Source: Pseudomonas fluorescens
Lineage (GTDB): Bacteria > Pseudomonadota > Gammaproteobacteria > Pseudomonadales > Pseudomonadaceae
Assembly (NCBI RefSeq): GCF_001708445.1
Contig: NZ_CP015637.1
Span: forward strand, 6,139,001 to 6,203,000
Length of the DNA stretch: 64,000 nucleotides
Reading direction: 5' to 3'
Position 1 is the first letter of the stretch; every line of letters begins with the position of its first letter. Shown here one piece after another: positions 25,393 through 34,870 of this stretch. Made by a program: the position numbers and the translations under genes. Under the pieces are notes generated by a model, which saw nothing but the letters and a program-made list of their open reading frames with translations, was not told the origin of the DNA and made no database searches.

Positions 25393-26157
25393 ATGTGGGA
25401 TCTCATTGAAAAAGGTTTGGAACATAACGGCCTGATCACCGCGTTCGCCTTCGTCGGCGTGGTCATGTGGATTTCCGTGGTGCTGTCCAAGCGCCTGACG
25501 TTCGGGCGCATCCATGGCTCGGCGATTGCGATCGTGATCGGCCTGGTGCTGGCCTGGGTCGGCGGCACCATGACTGGCGGGCAAAAAGGCCTGGCGGATC
25601 TGTCGCTGTTCTCCGGCATCGGCCTGATGGGCGGGGCGATGCTGCGCGACTTCGCGATTGTCGCCACGGCGTTTGAAGTGCAAGCCACCGAAGCGCGCAA
25701 AGCCGGGATGATCGGCGTGATTGCGCTGCTGCTCGGCACGATCCTGCCGTTTATTGTTGGTGCGAGCATGGCCTGGGCCTTTGGTTATCGGGATGCGATC
25801 AGCATGACCACCATCGGCGCGGGCGCCGTGACCTACATCGTTGGCCCGGTGACCGGTGCGGCGATTGGTGCGACCTCGGATGTGATGGCGCTGTCGATCG
25901 CCACCGGCCTGATCAAGGCGATCCTGGTGATGGTCGGCACGCCGGTAGCGGCGCGTTGGATGGGGTTGGATAACCCGCGTTCGGCGATGGTGTTTGGTGG
26001 CTTGGCCGGGACCGTGAGTGGCGTGACGGCGGGGCTGGCGGCGACGGATCGTCGGTTGGTGCCGTATGGTGCGCTGACGGCGACGTTCCACACCGGGCTT
26101 GGGTGTTTGCTTGGGCCTTCGTTGCTGTACTTCATTGTTCGCGGGTTGGTTGGCTAG
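25393..26157 (+). CDS. madM: Malonate transporter subunit MadM
   Basis: 254 residues, strongly hydrophobic with about eight segments; opens MWDLIEKGLEHNGLITAFA as in the MadM family. Works with MadL to bring malonate into the cell for the decarboxylase encoded upstream. Last gene of the mdc operon on this strand. REPs follow. Confidence 0.94.
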   Translation: MWDLIEKGLEHNGLITAFAFVGVVMWISVVLSKRLTFGRIHGSAIAIVIGLVLAWVGGTMTGGQKGLADLSLFSGIGLMGGAMLRDFAIVATAFEVQATEARKAGMIGVIALLLGTILPFIVGASMAWAFGYRDAISMTTIGAGAVTYIVGPVTGAAIGATSDVMALSIATGLIKAILVMVGTPVAARWMGLDNPRSAMVFGGLAGTVSGVTAGLAATDRRLVPYGALTATFHTGLGCLLGPSLLYFIVRGLVG

Positions 26158-26184
26158 CTTTGGAAGTTGTGTTGTCTGGTTTGG

Positions 26185-26510
26185 CCTCATCGGGGCATAG
26201 GTATCTACACAACGTTGGCTCAACGCTGAATGCCCGGAAAATAGGGCTGTTGTGGCGAGCGGGCTTGTCCCGCGTTGGGCTGCGTAGCAGCCCTAGTCAA
26301 GAAGAACGCGGTGTATCAGACACTCTGCAGAGGCTGGTTTTGGGGCTGCTACGCAGCCCAACGCGGGACAAGCCCGCTCGCCACAGGGAGATTTGTCAGG
26401 GGCTGAAAAGTTGTGTAGATACCCATGCTCATCGGGGGCAAGCCCCCTCCCACATTTTGAATTGCGAACACATTCAAGTGTGGGAGGGGGCTTGCCCCCG
26501 ATGGCTATCT
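26185..26510. repeat. Nested REP/REPIN cluster between madM and mdcR
   Basis: Three layers. A REPIN of the GCGAGCGGGCTTG family occupies about 26250-26386. It lies inside an outer inverted repeat GGTATCTACACAAC (26200-26213) / GTTGTGTAGATACC (26410-26423), whose right side continues into a standard REPIN (ATCGGGGGCAAGCCCCCTCCC at about 26431, inverted copy to 26505). The spacer has no gene; both flanking genes converge on it. Confidence 0.85.
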
Positions 26511-28186: not shown

Positions 28187-28197
28187 CAGCCAATGAG
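28174..28197 (+). repeat. Left boundary direct repeat of the AT-rich island
   Basis: 24 bases including the trhA stop, with core TAACAGCCAATGAG. The partner is at 33893-33916 (22 of 24 identical). Both copies are followed by a REP unit ending CTCCCACATTGG(A/G)TCT. Confidence 0.8.
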
Positions 28198-28203
28198 GTA
28201 AAA

Positions 28204-28500
28204 AATGTGGGAGAGGGCAAGCCCCTCCCACATTGGATCTCCATTGGATTTGGAGTTTTGTATTTACAGCTGTAATGGGGCAACTCATTTCGCTGGGCAA
28301 ATAACGGGGCTGTGCCATCAACACTAAGGGGGGATAGGGCTGCCTGCTGAAATGCTGTCAGTAAGGTCGATTTTATTGATACGATTCTGGCGTGTATCGA
28401 TAAAATTTCCATGTTTATTCAAGAGCGAACAGTCCTGAGACGTTGTGTTGTTCTGGGTTCGGAACTGTTGCTTATGTTTGGCGTTGGTTTGCAACGGTAG
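28204..28500. other. REP hairpin and non-coding left margin of the island
   Basis: 28204-28237 is one imperfect REP palindrome (GTGGGAGAGGGCAAGCCCCTCCCAC). From there to 28500 I find no gene; base composition shifts from GC-rich to AT-rich at about 28350-28400. It probably includes the 3' end of the island operon; no strong terminator is seen. Confidence 0.6.
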
Positions 28501-28501
28501 T

Positions 28502-29758
28502 CTACTTTTCTTTCGGCTTTTTGTAAGTAGTGGAAAAGCAGTAAGCCCCCATGAGTATTGTTAAGCCGTAGCTTAGCCCATTCATTGTTTTTTCTGGAGA
28601 AAAGAGAAGGCTGCTTGCTGTGACGGTGAATATAACTGAAACTGTCGTTATGAGTTCTGTGATTAAAAAGAAAGAGAATATTTCCTCTCTGCATGCATGA
28701 TCTAGAATTTCATTTGATGTTACTCGGGTCAATATGATTCCGATCCCAGTCCCAAGAAAACAAAAGGCGGAAAGTATATAAAAATATAAACTATCCGTGC
28801 TTTCAGTGGCCATTGCCAGAGATATGGCAATAGTCATTAAAAAACAAAAAGATGAAAGTGCTGAGCTGGATTTTTTAAAAGTTAGCTTGGATAGCCCGGC
28901 TGCTCCGATAGCCGTAGACGCCAAAAAAACTAAAAAGGCTGTTAGTGAGCTTCCTAGCCAATATAAGCTTTCAGGTATGCCTGTAGAGGAATTGTGGCGA
29001 TATAATAAGCCGATTGCGTACATGAGGATCAACATTTCAAAAGTGTTGCCTGCTATATATCCAAAAAACTGGCTGGGGTATTTAGATATTATTGTAAAGT
29101 GCTGCATGTAGTTAAGGTGGATTCGATGTTCTGAACTGTTTCTTTTAGTGAGGATTGGCCTGAGGTCATGGTGAGAGAAGTAAATCTGAGTAGAGCGGCA
29201 TAGTAATATTGGCAACATCGTCACTAACATAGCATACAAGTAATATCCGCCACTCATCATGAGTGAGGCTATCAGTAATAAAGTTAATGGAGTGCCTATG
29301 CGTATGTGCAGGTGTTTTTTAAAGGCACCCACATAATCTGCGCTATGTCCAGTGAGGTGCAGATGGAGGTCGTTGTAGGCTGGCCTGAAAGATGACCTCA
29401 GGCAGCCAGTGCCTAGTGAGTCTAAGGTGAATGAAATGAGTATAAAGCACCAACTAATATACCAGTAGTCGAGTAATACAAAATAGAATCCAGCGGTTAA
29501 AAAAACAGCGCTTGCTAGCTTGAATGTGAATCCGTAAATTGTTGTGCTGGCCGTACCAAATCGGTTTACGAACGAATGTCCAGTGTAAAATTCAATAACC
29601 AAGGAAATTAACAGTTGTGTGATAAGTGAAAATTCTAAGGAAAAACTTCCGAGTTTAGGGTTGGTTGCTATCAGAGCCAGCTCTAGTATTGTTACACCCA
29701 TCGCGATGCCACCATATAGTGCGTCTGAGCGGGAGACGATATTGGCGGCGCTTTTCAT
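28502..29758 (-). CDS. MFS-type transporter, probable exporter of the peptide product
   Basis: 418 residues with about twelve membrane segments in two groups of six and a longer basic loop around 185-225, as in major facilitator transporters. Family-level match only. It is the last gene of the low-GC operon, overlapping the upstream gene by 4 bases (ATGA), so it is translationally coupled and probably exports the modified peptide. No peptidase domain is fused to it, so leader removal must come from elsewhere. AT-rich codon use contrasts with the rest of the window. Confidence 0.75.
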   Translation of the reverse strand: MKSAANIVSRSDALYGGIAMGVTILELALIATNPKLGSFSLEFSLITQLLISLVIEFYTGHSFVNRFGTASTTIYGFTFKLASAVFLTAGFYFVLLDYWYISWCFILISFTLDSLGTGCLRSSFRPAYNDLHLHLTGHSADYVGAFKKHLHIRIGTPLTLLLIASLMMSGGYYLYAMLVTMLPILLCRSTQIYFSHHDLRPILTKRNSSEHRIHLNYMQHFTIISKYPSQFFGYIAGNTFEMLILMYAIGLLYRHNSSTGIPESLYWLGSSLTAFLVFLASTAIGAAGLSKLTFKKSSSALSSFCFLMTIAISLAMATESTDSLYFYILSAFCFLGTGIGIILTRVTSNEILDHACREEIFSFFLITELITTVSVIFTVTASSLLFSPEKTMNGLSYGLTILMGAYCFSTTYKKPKEK

Positions 29759-30288
29759 AGGCTGACTCTGAAAGTTTTGCCGGGTTCAAGAACTAGATTT
29801 CTATAAAGGATTGACGGGGCATGAGCTCGACCATAAAACATTAGTGTCGTGTAAATAGAGTCAAGGTCGAAGGGGACTAAAGTGTGAGGGTATCCTAAGG
29901 GCAGGACGGAAGTGTATTTGTAGTACTTGTCCCTCCCGTTTCGAAAGTCTTCGTAAAATAGTAGTTCGGAATCGATGGGTGGAAACTGAGTGTTTATCTT
30001 CTTGAAAAAAATTTCACACGCGGCGGCGTTTAGGTTTTTGTAGATTTTCGAGGTTTTATCAAAGCGATCAAATACGTCGATTAGAACGTCCTCCCCGTGA
30101 ATGGATTCTAAGTATCTGATCGTATGTGGCCAGCGTCTACTAATGTGCCTAGAGATGTCTAAATACCTTCTGATGCTTTCAAATGAGAAGTGTTTTTCTT
30201 CTGGGGATGTTGGATTTGATAATAAGTTATTAGATTCATATATTTTTGAGAAAAGCATAGTTGTTGAGAGTTTGCAGGTTTCTTTCAT
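29755..30288 (-). CDS. Unknown protein, probable partner of the MNIO enzyme
   Basis: 177 residues, no motif I can name, no signal or membrane segment. It is rich in aromatic and charged residues (RRYLDISRHISRRWPHTIRYLESIHGEDVL; LLFYEDFRNGRDKYYKY). It overlaps the MNIO gene by 4 bases upstream and the transporter by 4 downstream. DUF692/MNIO enzymes usually work with a partner protein encoded next to them (MbnC, TglI and similar, some containing a leader-binding domain). The position and size fit that role, but homology is not shown here. Confidence 0.5.
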   Translation of the reverse strand: MKETCKLSTTMLFSKIYESNNLLSNPTSPEEKHFSFESIRRYLDISRHISRRWPHTIRYLESIHGEDVLIDVFDRFDKTSKIYKNLNAAACEIFFKKINTQFPPIDSELLFYEDFRNGRDKYYKYTSVLPLGYPHTLVPFDLDSIYTTLMFYGRAHAPSILYRNLVLEPGKTFRVSL

Positions 30289-31133
30289 TTTTTATTCGCA
30301 TCCCTAAGCGCATTTTTTATGAGGGATATATTGCTGTTTTCAACTTCTAATGGTGCTCCCTCCATTTCCAATAAGACGTTATGTGTTTTTCGGGTTTTTA
30401 TTATCGTATTTTTGAAGGTCTCCATGAGTTCATTGTTGAAAGGGTCTGAGTGTTGGTCAAGCCAGACGGGAATACCATTCCATAGCCAAGACTTTACTCC
30501 TGAGATGTGTACAGTTTTAATTAGATTCCAGATTTCGTGGGTAGCGCAGGGTAAATCGAACGCTAGGCCTTTAGTTTTGCAGTAGCCCAGATAATGTCCA
30601 ATATCAAGCGCCATCATGCATTCAGAGCGCCTGCATAGCTCTAGGTAAAATCCCCAAAACTCTATATTTCCAAATTCGCTATAGATTGGCGGGTTTTCTA
30701 AGACTATGGGTATTTCGAAGTAGTCATTTATGATTCTGGCATTGTCAGCAGTGGTTTTTAATGTTGTTTTGTTCATGGGTGGATTGGTTTGATGGGCGCC
30801 CAAAAAGAGGTTGCCGTTCCTCCATATTCCGATATCTTCCTCTATATAAATGATAGGAAGTGTGGCCAGTGCCTCCTTGAGGCTTTTTAAATCCGCCATG
30901 TCAATAACCCCAGAAAAATTGATGTCTACGGGGTGTGCTGACATTGTAAAATCTGCGGATAGGCATGTCTCAACTAACGAATTTTCTATTTTGTCCCATG
31001 GGCGTATGCCCAAACTAAAGTGACGAATCGGTGTGTGATGATATATATGGTTGATGTCATTGCGATGCTGAATGAACTGTTTTAGTTTTTCTATGTCGCC
31101 GCTAACGCCTATGCGAATTGAACGTTCTTTCAT
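30285..31133 (-). CDS. DUF692/MNIO-family iron-dependent peptide-modifying enzyme
   Basis: 282 residues, TIM-barrel pattern of the multinuclear non-haem iron oxidative enzymes (MbnB, TglH type). Likely metal ligands and signature points: H67 (MSAHPVD), E99-D100, E146-N147 (IVLENPP), D177 and H180 (MALDIGH), H209 (VHISG), D226 and H228 (WLDQHSDP), E256 (LLEMEG). Known members oxidatively rearrange Cys, Asp or Asn residues of precursor peptides using two or three iron ions and O2. The candidate precursor here has no Cys, so an Asp or other residue would be the target. It lies 22 bp after the radical SAM gene. Confidence 0.82.
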   Translation of the reverse strand: MKERSIRIGVSGDIEKLKQFIQHRNDINHIYHHTPIRHFSLGIRPWDKIENSLVETCLSADFTMSAHPVDINFSGVIDMADLKSLKEALATLPIIYIEEDIGIWRNGNLFLGAHQTNPPMNKTTLKTTADNARIINDYFEIPIVLENPPIYSEFGNIEFWGFYLELCRRSECMMALDIGHYLGYCKTKGLAFDLPCATHEIWNLIKTVHISGVKSWLWNGIPVWLDQHSDPFNNELMETFKNTIIKTRKTHNVLLEMEGAPLEVENSNISLIKNALRDANKK

Positions 31134-31155
31134 AAAACACCCGTTTGAAGGCTGG

Positions 31156-32904
31156 TTATAAAGATTTACCTATGAGTTCACCTTTTCTCCCTCCTGAACC
31201 AGTTGTCGGTGTTTCTATAATTTTGAGTTTGGGGGAGTTGATTGCATTGTCATTGGCGATAGCTTTATTGATTTTAGTTACATAGTTAATAAAAAAATTC
31301 TTACGGTTAATTTCAGTTGTTTTATCTGGGTTGTGACAAAGCCACCATAATACTTGGAATGGCATATGTTTTAAGTGAATATTTAGCAAGGATAAGTAGG
31401 CAACTTCGGTAAGTGAAGTGGATGTCCCGACCTTTTCAATGTTTGATGCAATTGCTTGCTCGAGTTGGTTTAGTATGGGTTTTGCAAAGTTGTCTATATA
31501 GGCAGTATATATTTTATATACTTCGTGATTTTCAATAAATGCTCTGCTGTTTGGTAGCTGTAACAAGTCAAGCTTTGTACCTATCTTTCTCTCCAAATTT
31601 TTTCTTACGGGCGTTTCTGGATACAACATCATAATGTTGAAGTAGTGATCTAAGGATTCGTGTTCGGTCAGTCCGGATTTAACCAAGAATACTAAGTTCT
31701 CAATGATTTCTCTTTTTTGTTGGTCGTGATAAAACATTATAAAGTCAAGGCCGACATCTATTCTGTTGTTTTGTAGGGCTCTTACGGCATCAATATTGTT
31801 TTGTACAGTGACCTTTTTGTTCATGTAGTCTAGTTGGGACTGTGAGCCGGACTCGACTCCCATCTCGACAAGCCTTAATCCCTGCCTTACTAATTTTGGT
31901 AGTTCGGATTGCAATTTTAGAAGATAGCCTACGGTGGAGGAACTGCTCCATGTGACTCGACCTTCGAATAAGTTGTACAGTTTTTCTGAGAACTCCAGCA
32001 CTCTATCTTTTCGAACAAAAAAATTCGCATCCATCATGTATATGTGTTCGAACGAGTACTGTGTATAGGCTTCTGCCATCCAGTTAACAAGCGTCGTGGC
32101 GTCGATGGCCCGCCATTTTGGACCCTCCTTGTCTGCTGCGACAATAGCGCAAAAGGAACATGCTAATGGGCAGCCTCGACTGCTCGTCAATGCTATGGCT
32201 TTTCTCTTTTTAGCATCATTTCTATCTGTGAAATAAAGGTTTTGTAAGCGTTCTGAGGAGTATTCAAGGAGTGGGTTCTCCCAGTCTGCTGTGGGAAGCT
32301 GTATTTTTTCTATATAGGACTCTTTAAGCTTTCCAGATGCGGTAAGCCACACTGCGTTTGGTACTTTATTGAAGTGATTTTTATATATGTATTTTTTTCT
32401 TTGTTTTTTTGATTTTGTTTTAAGTGAGGTCTGCGTATTAACTTTATTAAATAGTACTATAAGTCTGGCAGTTGAATGCTCGCCCTCGCCACGTAACGCT
32501 AACTCAAAAGTCCCTTTGGCCGCACGCAGGAAATCTTCCGCTGCTAGACTTATATGAGGGCCTCCACAGAAAATGAATGTTCCGGGCAAGGCATTTTTTA
32601 TTGTGCTTCCCCACGTGATTGCTGCTTGCACATGACTGCTATATATTGAGATCCCAACAAGGTGTGGAGCCCAGTTGATTAAATCGGATAGCTCGTTAAT
32701 ATCTGATGTGTATAGATCGGAGTAGTCAAAGATTTTACAAGTTGCATGCTTGGCATTTTTTTTTACATACGCTGAGATATTCTGCAGGCCAAGCGGCATT
32801 ACTTTTTGTGGGCCTTCGCCGTAGGGTAAAGCTACTAATGCGAGCCGACAGAGCTCGACAGGCTCACTCGTGCGAGTCGCTGAAAAGTAGGGAGCTTTTT
32901 TCAT
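31156..32904 (-). CDS. B12-binding-domain radical SAM enzyme
   Basis: 582 residues from the ATG preceded by GAGGAG (a start six codons upstream has no RBS). The N-terminal cobalamin-binding-like Rossmann domain (about 20-150) has the usual PHLVGISIY, IFCGGPHIS and LRGEGEHS strand and loop signatures, but lacks the DxHxxG base-off motif. The radical SAM cluster is C245-x3-C249-x2-C252 (SRGCPLACSFC), followed by a TIM-barrel with GVESGSQSQLDYMNKK. Such enzymes methylate unactivated carbons or otherwise modify peptides and small molecules. It overlaps the upstream small gene by 41 bases. Codon use is strongly AT-rich. Confidence 0.9.
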   Translation of the reverse strand: MKKAPYFSATRTSEPVELCRLALVALPYGEGPQKVMPLGLQNISAYVKKNAKHATCKIFDYSDLYTSDINELSDLINWAPHLVGISIYSSHVQAAITWGSTIKNALPGTFIFCGGPHISLAAEDFLRAAKGTFELALRGEGEHSTARLIVLFNKVNTQTSLKTKSKKQRKKYIYKNHFNKVPNAVWLTASGKLKESYIEKIQLPTADWENPLLEYSSERLQNLYFTDRNDAKKRKAIALTSSRGCPLACSFCAIVAADKEGPKWRAIDATTLVNWMAEAYTQYSFEHIYMMDANFFVRKDRVLEFSEKLYNLFEGRVTWSSSSTVGYLLKLQSELPKLVRQGLRLVEMGVESGSQSQLDYMNKKVTVQNNIDAVRALQNNRIDVGLDFIMFYHDQQKREIIENLVFLVKSGLTEHESLDHYFNIMMLYPETPVRKNLERKIGTKLDLLQLPNSRAFIENHEVYKIYTAYIDNFAKPILNQLEQAIASNIEKVGTSTSLTEVAYLSLLNIHLKHMPFQVLWWLCHNPDKTTEINRKNFFINYVTKINKAIANDNAINSPKLKIIETPTTGSGGRKGELIGKSL

Positions 32905-33118
32905 AAGAACTCCTCGCTTCATTGGCGTTAGCCAGGTTAAAAAAATCTGGATAGCGCTCCGCTATGAGCGCAGATTTTTCGTCAGACTCTAGTGCTTCAA
33001 TAAACTTTCTTTTCGATATTTTCAGAAGGTGCGTCCCGTTGTGAAAAAAGCAATACCCTAGCTCCGTTAGGCAAATTACTTCGGGCTTCGTTTTTATTCT
33101 CATACGATGTTTTTCCAT
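32864..33118 (-). CDS. Small protein of the peptide cluster; candidate leader-recognition (RRE-like) protein
   Basis: 84 residues from ATG (GGGAG 3 bases upstream; a TTG 13 codons earlier lies in a hairpin). Not recognised by family. Its core KTKPEVICLTELGYCFFHNGTH... then KISKRKFIEALES has a length and beta-then-helix pattern that could fit a PqqD-like RiPP recognition element, but this is a guess from size and position between precursor and modifying enzyme. It overlaps the radical SAM gene by 41 bases, indicating coupled translation. Confidence 0.5.
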   Translation of the reverse strand: MEKHRMRIKTKPEVICLTELGYCFFHNGTHLLKISKRKFIEALESDEKSALIAERYPDFFNLANANEARSSYEKSSLLFSDSHE

Positions 33119-33130
33119 CCACTCCCAATG

Positions 33131-33158
33131 ATTGGGCACCGGCTTTACAGTGCCCAAT
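33131..33158 (-). promoter_or_regulatory. Intercistronic hairpin between precursor and biosynthetic genes
   Basis: A perfect 9-bp stem ATTGGGCAC/GTGCCCAAT with a 10-base loop, 15 bases past the precursor stop. No T-run follows, so it looks like an mRNA-stabilising or partial-attenuation element. The 3' arm can also pair with the next TTGGGAG (CCCAATCATTGGG), which contains the ribosome binding site of the next gene. Confidence 0.6.
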
Positions 33159-33172
33159 TAGTTAGTGCTTCA

Positions 33173-33292
33173 TTAGAATTCGGGAGCCGTTTTTCCAGCA
33201 ACCATGTCGTAACTTCCATCTGATACCGGGGTTAAGGTCTCGACATCAGAGGCCAGTTCATCCAGGTAGTCATCGTCGTTTTCATCTTTCAT
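33173..33292 (-). CDS. Candidate RiPP precursor peptide, 39 residues
   Basis: A short frame with a good RBS (AAGAAGGGG, about 6 bases before ATG). It begins MKDENDDDYLDELASDVETL, an acidic leader-like half with a YLDEL helix, and ends PVSDGSYDMVAGKTAPEF. There is no Cys. The acidic leader, short C-terminal segment, first position in the operon and hairpin before the enzyme genes are the usual layout of a RiPP precursor. The modified residues cannot be known from sequence; D29 next to Y28, or the C-terminal tail, are candidates. Small size makes the call moderately uncertain. Confidence 0.68.
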   Translation of the reverse strand: MKDENDDDYLDELASDVETLTPVSDGSYDMVAGKTAPEF

Positions 33293-33892
33293 ATATTACC
33301 CCTTCTTATTTTTGGTTTCTGTTTACTACACAAAAGAGCAGTGGTGTTTAATTTATGAATGGAGATGGCTGTAAGAATAACCAGTCGGATTAATTAAGTG
33401 TCTTGTATGCCAGCAAGAAGCTTGGTGGCTCTTATATAAAAGCCCCTAATATTCTGTGAGTCAAATAAAAAATGAAATTTCAGAAACTTCCTAGGATTTT
33501 TGTTTTTTTTGTAAGAATGGTCCCACTTTGAAAGATAACTCCTACGTACATGTAGGAAGGGGAGGTTATGCAAATGTAGTCGATTATTTTTGAGTCCCGG
33601 AATTTGTTTTATTTTTTTTGCTTGCAAAAAATGAATTAATTGCTGGGTCGTTATAGCAAAGCTCTATTAGCCAAGTTTTAAGAATTTTTAAACCGTTACG
33701 TCATGCGGATATTTTTGTGTTGCTCTCTCATGACTCGCCTGTCGAATGTGAGGTTTATCCAGACTGGCGAGCGGCATGTACTCGACAGTTCGCCAGCCGC
33801 ACCAGCAAATTCGAGTCCTACTTCTTGGACTGTAAAAAGCCCAATCCGATCGGCTTCTGCAACCGATACCCAGGTTCCAATTCATGTACTAA
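33293..33892. other. AT-rich 5' margin of the island, promoter region of the peptide operon
   Basis: 600 bases without a credible gene. The first 130 bases upstream of the precursor are AT-rich and must hold its promoter; no clear -10/-35 pair was found. 33394-33700 is AT-rich with only a TTG-initiated Lys-rich frame. 33700-33892 returns to higher GC and contains short frames on both strands with no recognised product, possibly a gene remnant. Confidence 0.5.
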
Positions 33893-33953
33893 GTAAGTGC
33901 TTTAACAGCCAATGAGACATATAGATGGAGGAGGGCTTGTCCCTCCCACATTG
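33893..33953 (+). repeat. Right boundary direct repeat of the AT-rich island plus REP half
   Basis: 33893-33916 repeats 28174-28197 (core TAACAGCCAATGAG). A REP palindrome (GGAGGAGGGCTTGTCCCTCCC, about 33926-33953) follows, as it does at the left boundary. Confidence 0.8.
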
Positions 33954-33967
33954 GGTCTTCAGTGCGC

Positions 33968-34870
33968 TTACAAGCGTTCCAGTAGTTCCCGGGCGCGGTT
34001 GCCGAAGATATCCAGCAGGTTGGCCAACATATGCGGCGGCGGTTCATCGGCACGGGTCAGGGCGTACAGAGTGATCGGCAGCGGCGGTGTGAGTGTGCGG
34101 ATGCAGGTGGTGGCCGTTGAGGCGCCCAACGCCGTGAACGGATCGATCACGGTCAGGCCGGCGCCCGATTCGACCATGGCGCGGGCCAGGGAATAGGTTT
34201 GCACCGAGATGGTCACGCGCGGTGGCGGCTCGACGTTTTCCAGGTAGCTGTCGAGTTTGGCCGCCAACGGGTCGGCGCTGGACAGACCAATCAGCGGTGC
34301 CCCCGCCAGGTCAGCCAGTGGCAAGGGGGTGTGCATTTGTGCGTCGGGCCAATAGCCCTTTGAGGCCATTGCCACCAACACACCGTTGGCCAGCACCTGT
34401 GTGGTCAACCCTGGATGCCCGGAGAAATTGAGGGTCAGCGCCAGGTCGATCTCGCGCATCAACAGTTTCTGCACCAGCTCGCGACTATGGTCGCTGGACA
34501 GCTCGCAGGCGATGTCCGGGTATTCGCGTTTCCATTCCAGAATCGCCGGTGGCAGCAGCGACAGCGCCAACGCCGGAATAGCCCCGATCCGCACGCTTTG
34601 CTCAGGTGCACGGCGCAAACTCTTGGCCAGGCGTCGCACGCCTTGCAGGCTCTCGGTGACTTTCTCGACTTCGCGTTCCAGCGCCAGGGCTTCAGGTGTT
34701 GGCTGCAATTTACCGCGCACCCGCAGAAACAGCGGGAAGCCCAACTGTAATTCGGCGTGTTGCAATACTTTGGTCACCGCCGGTTGCGAGACGTGCAGCA
34801 ACTGCGCAGCAGCGCTGACGGAGCCGGTCTGGCGGATGGCCTGGAAGATTTCGATATGACGCAAGCGCAT
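33968..34870 (-). CDS. LysR-family transcriptional regulator
   Basis: 300 residues from MRLRHIEIFQAI, a typical LysR opening, with HTH GSVSAAAQLLHVSQPAVTKVLQ and a substrate-binding domain (IGAIPALALSLLPPAI...). A 15-residue upstream extension is unlikely. It is divergent from the D-amino-acid dehydrogenase gene with a 107-bp shared promoter region, so it probably controls that operon, with an amino acid as likely effector. Confidence 0.88.
   Translation of the reverse strand: MRLRHIEIFQAIRQTGSVSAAAQLLHVSQPAVTKVLQHAELQLGFPLFLRVRGKLQPTPEALALEREVEKVTESLQGVRRLAKSLRRAPEQSVRIGAIPALALSLLPPAILEWKREYPDIACELSSDHSRELVQKLLMREIDLALTLNFSGHPGLTTQVLANGVLVAMASKGYWPDAQMHTPLPLADLAGAPLIGLSSADPLAAKLDSYLENVEPPPRVTISVQTYSLARAMVESGAGLTVIDPFTALGASTATTCIRTLTPPLPITLYALTRADEPPPHMLANLLDIFGNRARELLERL

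Follow-up and report, generated by a model that had tools for sequence, protein, structure and literature searches.

The pairing of a DUF692-family iron enzyme (MNIO) with a B12-dependent radical S-adenosylmethionine (SAM) enzyme has been characterised in three pathways to ribosomally synthesized and post-translationally modified peptides (RiPPs), namely pbs, bip and apy (PMC12257519, PMC12707348, PMC10635010). The pbs genes run in the order precursors, B12 radical SAM enzyme, MNIO and partner protein, and the cluster also has a major facilitator superfamily (MFS) gene (PMC12257519). Aminopyruvatide biosynthesis likewise directs a B12 radical SAM enzyme, an MNIO and a partner (ApyD, ApyH and ApyI) at one precursor. 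Here we describe a six-gene cluster that combines the two kinds of enzyme at positions 28502-33292 of a 64,000-nucleotide stretch of DNA (the window) from the 6.64-Mb, single-contig genome of Pseudomonas fluorescens. The listing of open reading frames (ORFs) and the comparison of loci place all six genes on the minus strand in one direction, encoding in turn a 39-residue peptide, a small protein, a B12-binding radical SAM enzyme, an MNIO, a 177-residue protein and a 418-residue membrane protein. It is highly probable that they form a RiPP operon acting on the 39-residue precursor, and the set very probably serves to produce a tiny peptide, to modify it chemically and to export it. Its enzymes are similar to those behind known antibiotics of the modified-peptide kind. 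An earlier note had proposed such an operon, with a Cys-free precursor, from the DNA letters; recurring loci and a conserved precursor support that proposal. The note thought the pairing plus this precursor to be new; novelty of the pairing as such is rejected on the literature for biphenomycin and aminopyruvatide.

One scan of genomes, with an MNIO alignment of 32 rows as query, gave seven loci. Five keep all six genes in the same order, precursor included, so the arrangement is not due to chance: Pseudomonas fluorescens PS858 (L005), Pseudomonas sp. PDM05 (L006), Photorhabdus akhurstii (L007), Photorhabdus namnaonensis (L008) and Pseudomonas folii (L009). Pseudomonas lurida 114A4 (L004) retains the precursor, 177-residue protein and transporter genes, a deletion having removed the small gene, the radical SAM gene and the beginning of the MNIO gene, some 51 codons (remnant L004:9840-10693). 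The seventh locus, from a deltaproteobacterial metagenome-assembled genome (L010), has a distant MNIO beside cupin proteins and none of the other five genes.

The precursor, MKDENDDDYLDELASDVETLTPVSDGSYDMVAGKTAPEF, has an acidic leader and a C-terminal part with an invariant Tyr and the terminal sequence GKTAPEF. From the 20 candidates of a protein search with six precursors came 18 proteins, one of them the window's own, and all 18 were aligned. Every row ends in Y-[DE]-x-x-[AG]-GKTAPEF: Y28 and G33-F39 are kept throughout, the Tyr always stands five positions before GKTAPEF, and the leader is variable. Tyr28 and Phe39 are the sole invariant aromatic residues. The acidic residue after the Tyr is Asp in 8 rows and Glu in 10. 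In the seven nucleotide sequences compared, those of the window and of six loci (L004 among them), each of the seven GKTAPEF codons varies synonymously with zero replacements, and the possibility that the gene is a chance ORF was rejected on this conservation of the protein with synonymous variation. The earlier note had staked its proposal on the peptide being present in homologous loci, and it is present there. The motif occurred once per genome in all six genomes searched (that of L007 being left out), and among the genomes searched it was seen only in those with the cluster or its remnant. All seven spacers folded have a hairpin at the matching place behind the precursor gene, its sequence differing between them (z -2.6 to -5.1); it may stabilise or attenuate the transcript and so favour an excess of precursor mRNA. 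Because the C terminus is invariant, one fixed product, such as a signal, a metallophore or a specific inhibitor, would be favoured over a diversifying antibiotic.

The MNIO belongs to the same PF05114 family as those of methanobactin (MbnBC) and the bufferins, scoring 54.7 bits against a cut-off of 25, and has ligand-type residues at all nine iron-binding positions (H67, D100, E146, D177, H180, H209, D226, H228 and E256). The metal ligands are thus intact, as the earlier note said, in that every position is filled, but two differ from the MbnB/bufferin type (Asp for His at 100, His for Asn at 180). The methanobactin and bufferin enzymes have Cys substrates and the set HHEDNHDHE, as in VcMbnB (His55, His91, Glu135, Asp165, Asn168, His194, Asp209 and Glu238, and for Fe3 also His211; PMC8888699). 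The same HHEDNHDHE set was present in all 30 other gammaproteobacterial MNIOs read, which were the best 30 places from an ApyH-model search of 369 gammaproteobacterial genomes with matches in 221; this contrast sample is biased to the preferences of the ApyH model, has no place above the ApyH cut-off and does not include ApyH itself. Two further MNIO genes in the host genome (C1:6516460-6516924, L002; 1464845-1465453, L051) also encode HHEDNHDHE. The window's HDEDHHDHE set recurs in all 37 proteins from the MNIO search, in L010 and in a Streptomyces plasmid MNIO, all found by similarity to the window enzyme and so not an independent sample. That Streptomyces europaeiscabiei enzyme lies near genes for YcaO, metallo-beta-lactamase-fold, acyl-protein synthase and acyl-CoA reductase proteins, the last two presumably LuxE/LuxC-like, and small ORFs, in what looks like another RiPP cluster (L023:4530-13647).

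The ligand order of the window enzyme is identical to the list published for the biphenomycin-type enzyme PbsC, which was modelled by AlphaFold 3 with three irons bound by His97, Asp133 and Glu178, by His216, Asp260 and His262, and by Asp213, His247 and Glu290 (in sequence order H97, D133, E178, D213, H216, H247, D260, H262, E290; PMC12257519); the comparison is one of ligand lists. In MbnB the two-His iron of site 1 binds the substrate Cys (PMC13419390), and loss of one site-1 His therefore fits a Cys-free substrate. Methanobactin-like Cys chemistry is rejected on the Cys-free precursor and the altered ligand set, in agreement with the earlier note. PbsCD ortho-hydroxylates Phe and Tyr (PMC12257519), and by analogy with this one characterised enzyme the Asp/His set may predict aromatic hydroxylation. 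On balance we expect the window MNIO to be a hydroxylase; that its target is aromatic seems to us somewhat short of an even chance.

The radical SAM enzyme has B12-binding and radical SAM domains (PF02310 and PF04055), and an alignment of six sequences bears out the CxxxCxxC cysteines C245, C249 and C252 (582-residue numbering) that had been picked out earlier. Its best NCBIfam scores, to the HpnR, BchE, TIGR04072 and ArsL models, stay far short of the cut-offs, and its nearest solved structures in the PDB are OxsB, TokK and an apramycin enzyme. All six aligned sequences share a C-terminal tail, TxGxGGR[KR]GE (window 31159-31210), which is presumably flexible. Most B12 radical SAM enzymes described in RiPP pathways methylate (PMC12707348). 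Cross-linking of the precursor, which cannot be told from methylation by sequence, is a possibility that we put lower than an aromatic target for the MNIO. The estimates for the RiPP operon, hydroxylation, an aromatic target and a cross-link are not mutually exclusive.

Structure models suggest roles for two of the remaining proteins. The small protein is a candidate discrete RiPP recognition element (RRE) of the PqqD type; an assignment to DUF6371 was dropped at 18.5 bits against a cut-off of 27.7. For the 177-residue protein the best solved-structure match is chain A of TglHI from pearlin biosynthesis, although it is some 90 residues shorter than that chain (269) and the precursor here, unlike in the TglHI system, is Cys-free. 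Its gene directly follows that of the MNIO, and its modelled fold, helical and DUF2063-like with a partial, TglI-like RRE, is that of a PME-type-2 partner. A six-row alignment of this protein gave no sequence match in the PDB and a 42-row alignment gave one, to an engineered protein (E 0.014). The 418-residue protein had been called an MFS transporter, a name that found no support: the window copy has no Pfam or NCBIfam match, and a six-row alignment found no PDB sequence match. A simple hydropathy scan gives 12 hydrophobic segments, and we regard the protein, which is conserved in six sequences, as a putative 12-transmembrane (12-TM) transporter.

With a B12 radical SAM enzyme, an MNIO and, by its structure model, a partner in one operon, behind the precursor gene and in the gene order of pbs, the locus resembles the biphenomycin-type systems (PbsB/BipD, PbsC/BipE, PbsD/BipF). 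It differs from pbs and bip in that the FHAFRF, FHTFMF and YHxYxY motifs are missing from all 18 precursor rows, in the additional small, putatively RRE-like protein, and in that none of the six genes has a Pfam match to an arginase or a TldD-type protease; the arginase is also absent from those published biphenomycin-like clusters that have no Arg motif. The published clusters as a whole are mostly from Actinomycetota and Bacillota, whereas the present ones are from Pseudomonas and Photorhabdus. Unlike in bip, no JmjC/cupin gene was seen in the operon. In both Photorhabdus loci a 277-residue ORF lies on the same strand about 0.7 kb upstream of the precursor (L008:6301-7134; L007:6312-7145); the L008 copy, the one scanned, matches Cupin_8/JmjC, and the bip cluster likewise contains a JmjC gene (PMC12707348). 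To judge by searches of the open-access literature, neither the peptide nor this precise set of genes seems to have been described: as far as their accessible parts show, none of the papers returned describes the precursor family or gene set. Matches to the motif went no further than a partial 'tapef', and the papers on Photorhabdus or Pseudomonas with DUF692/MNIO, radical SAM, cobalamin or RiPP mining showed no description of the operon.

Our best reading, held tentatively and by analogy, is that the locus represents a new MNIO/B12 radical SAM RiPP family whose MNIO acts as a hydroxylase, plausibly on the invariant Tyr or Phe, and whose radical SAM enzyme forms a cross-link or adds a methyl group. 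That the 39-residue peptide is the precursor, with an N-terminal acidic leader and a C-terminal Tyr-to-Phe stretch that would be modified or recognised, is strongly supported. The structure models suggest two separate docking proteins: the small gene, which overlaps the radical SAM gene, would encode an RRE-like one, and the 177-residue protein gene, which overlaps the MNIO gene, a TglI-like one. The MNIO, with its PbsC-type site, would carry out an O2-dependent hydroxylation, most likely of Tyr28 and/or Phe39. The B12 radical SAM enzyme would act on the same segment, most likely forming a C-C cross-link as PbsB/BipD do, or else C-methylating as ApyD does. Finally, a protease from outside the operon would remove the leader, since none was seen within it, and the 12-TM protein would export the product. 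In its most specific form, which we consider doubtful, the locus stands for a new RiPP class in Pseudomonas and Photorhabdus: the Cys-free peptide is hydroxylated by the MNIO with its distinct Asp/His iron site, and the B12 radical SAM enzyme closes a twelve-residue Tyr-Phe macrocycle, each enzyme having its own docking protein and one fixed product being exported in distant bacteria.

The reading that competes most seriously, if still an unlikely one, is chemistry of the ApyD/ApyH kind, in which the radical SAM enzyme C-methylates, for instance at the Tyr beta-carbon, and the MNIO oxidises an acidic residue or the C-terminal Glu-Phe rather than an aromatic ring. The prevalence of methylation among described RiPP B12 radical SAM enzymes (PMC12707348) speaks for it, as do the facts that ApyD methylates a Tyr adjoining the C terminus and ApyHI attacks the C-terminal Asp (PMC10635010), that MNIOs beta-hydroxylate Asp in pfl and pes, and that a C-terminal E-F and an acidic residue after the Tyr stand in all 18 rows. 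However, the ApyH model gives the MNIO 47.2 bits where its cut-off is 400, the ApyD model gives the radical SAM enzyme 42.7 where its cut-off is 750, the precursor ends in Phe rather than Asp and has no Cys, and neither a P450 nor a methyltransferase was seen in the operon. The exchange of Asp for Glu at position 29 speaks against an Asp-specific enzyme there. The Asp or backbone oxidation that had been suggested in the earlier note is possible, but not favoured in view of this Asp/Glu exchange and the PbsC-like ligands.

Two further explanations, each rather improbable, turn on the role of the invariant end. The peptide may be a scaffold from which the C terminus is cut off as a small molecule or a redox or metal-binding metabolite and exported, in the manner of PqqA, MftA or TglA. 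An invariant heptapeptide in 18 rows from two genera with a variable remainder, and the single motif match per genome, would suit this, and a discrete RRE-like protein next to a radical SAM enzyme is the arrangement of the pyrroloquinoline quinone (PQQ) and mycofactocin genes. Those genes, however, are not known to share the rarity and the apparent horizontal movement of this operon, and no peptidase, tRNA-dependent ligase or reductase was seen here. Alternatively, GKTAPEF may be a removable follower or recognition tag, the sole real target being the Tyr-acidic pair. Biphenomycin precursors have follower peptides (PMC12707348), and an enzyme docking site, too, would be expected to appear as a strictly invariant motif at the terminus; against this, two candidate docking proteins are already present for the leader, and the motif reaches the very C terminus, Phe included. 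It is very improbable that the small ORF is no precursor and that the enzymes act on another substrate. Its link to the enzymes is a prediction from sequence, but the ORF comes first in the operon and is kept in the five complete loci under protein-level constraint with a conserved hairpin downstream, and among the genomes searched its motif keeps to those with the cluster or its remnant.

All six ORFs were found where the earlier note had placed them (Table 1). The overlaps it gave, 41 bases between the small and radical SAM genes and 4 bases each between the MNIO and 177-residue protein genes and between the latter and the transporter gene, hold when the radical SAM gene is taken to start at 32904, with an ATG preceded by GAGGAG, rather than at 32922, where the longest ORF begins. 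The radical SAM gene ends at 31156, leaving 22 bases before the MNIO start at 31133. The small gene is present, but rather than the 84 residues first assigned it more likely encodes 79, from a start at 33103 at which six sequences line up. No NCBIfam cut-off is reached by any of the six proteins. Promoter-like sites in the region were not above expectation (10 against 13.7 from shuffles), and terminator-like sites were (11 against 5.5), the precursor hairpin not being among them.

Table 1. Features of the operon and its insertion, in window coordinates
Feature	Position	Strand	Basis
Precursor peptide gene, 39 residues	33173-33292	-	ORF with Shine-Dalgarno-like AAGGGG
RNA hairpin in the spacer between the precursor and small protein genes	33131-33158	-	Folding z -4.5
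Small protein, 79 residues (84 if begun at the ATG at 33118), PqqD-like candidate for a discrete, precursor-binding RRE	32864-33103	-	
B12-binding radical SAM enzyme, 582 residues	31156-32904	-	PF04055 and PF02310 above cut-off
MNIO (DUF692), 282 residues	30285-31133	-	PF05114, ligand columns
177-residue MNIO partner protein, PME-type-2-like	29755-30288	-	
Putative 12-TM exporter, 418 residues	28502-29758	-	12 hydrophobic segments; conserved in 6 sequences
Inserted low-GC segment with operon, between hlyIII and lysR	28190-33980	not assigned	GC, empty sites of relatives

The operon is rare. Of 398 genomes sampled within the genus, 2 had an MNIO match (E to 1e-15); an overlapping sample of 398 at family level gave 3 such genomes (E to 1e-40), and a sample of 369 at class level gave 1 (E to 1e-30), the host genome counting towards each figure. 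The precursor motif occurred in 2 of 293 relatives (the host itself and the genome with the decayed cluster) and in 1 of 12 Photorhabdus genomes. The GC content of the operon is 41% against 61-64% in its flanks; for the five relatives with a complete operon the figures are 34-45% for the operon and 39-60% for the rest of the locus. A lysR search matched 12 of 38 genomes, the host included, and in seven of the eight relatives with long matches that were compared hlyIII and lysR are adjacent with no operon between them, the matches lying 7 to about 260 bases apart. A chromosomal core pathway was rejected on the low GC and the empty site in relatives, and a tRNA-borne island because no tRNA was found in the window or the six loci scanned. 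The operon has apparently moved horizontally as a self-contained unit. It does not clearly follow the species tree, since the window MNIO shares 42% identity with its P. folii counterpart and 47% with the Photorhabdus one, and the radical SAM enzyme 58% with both. Viral contigs gave no confirmed relative, and plasmids gave the one distant Streptomyces MNIO. The radical SAM matches in 36 plasmid records were all below 60% identity with none covering at least 80% of the query, and the three of these neighbourhoods inspected held no annotated MNIO.

Near both operon borders lies a 39-nucleotide repeat, 79% identical between the copies (28208-28246 and 33926-33964), which we take to be like a repetitive extragenic palindrome (REP); the two copies may mark insertion or recombination points. 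Two long perfect or near-perfect inverted repeats, with arms of 43 and 28 nucleotides and REP-type by their look, occupy window 26251-26503. In PS858 the operon sits in the same region about 2 kb from the window's site and is flanked on both sides by a stretch resembling window 25967-26170 (L005:7183-7408 and about L005:12747), a placement that suggests independent insertion or movement.

Most characterised MNIOs act on Cys, and what determines the outcome of an MNIO reaction is an open question. The present locus offers a compact six-gene system with one small peptide of invariant end. The two-residue change at the iron site, His to Asp and Asn to His, which the enzyme has in common with PbsC, is a candidate predictor of Cys-free substrates, and a peptide end that Pseudomonas and Photorhabdus share without change points to a defined product and target.

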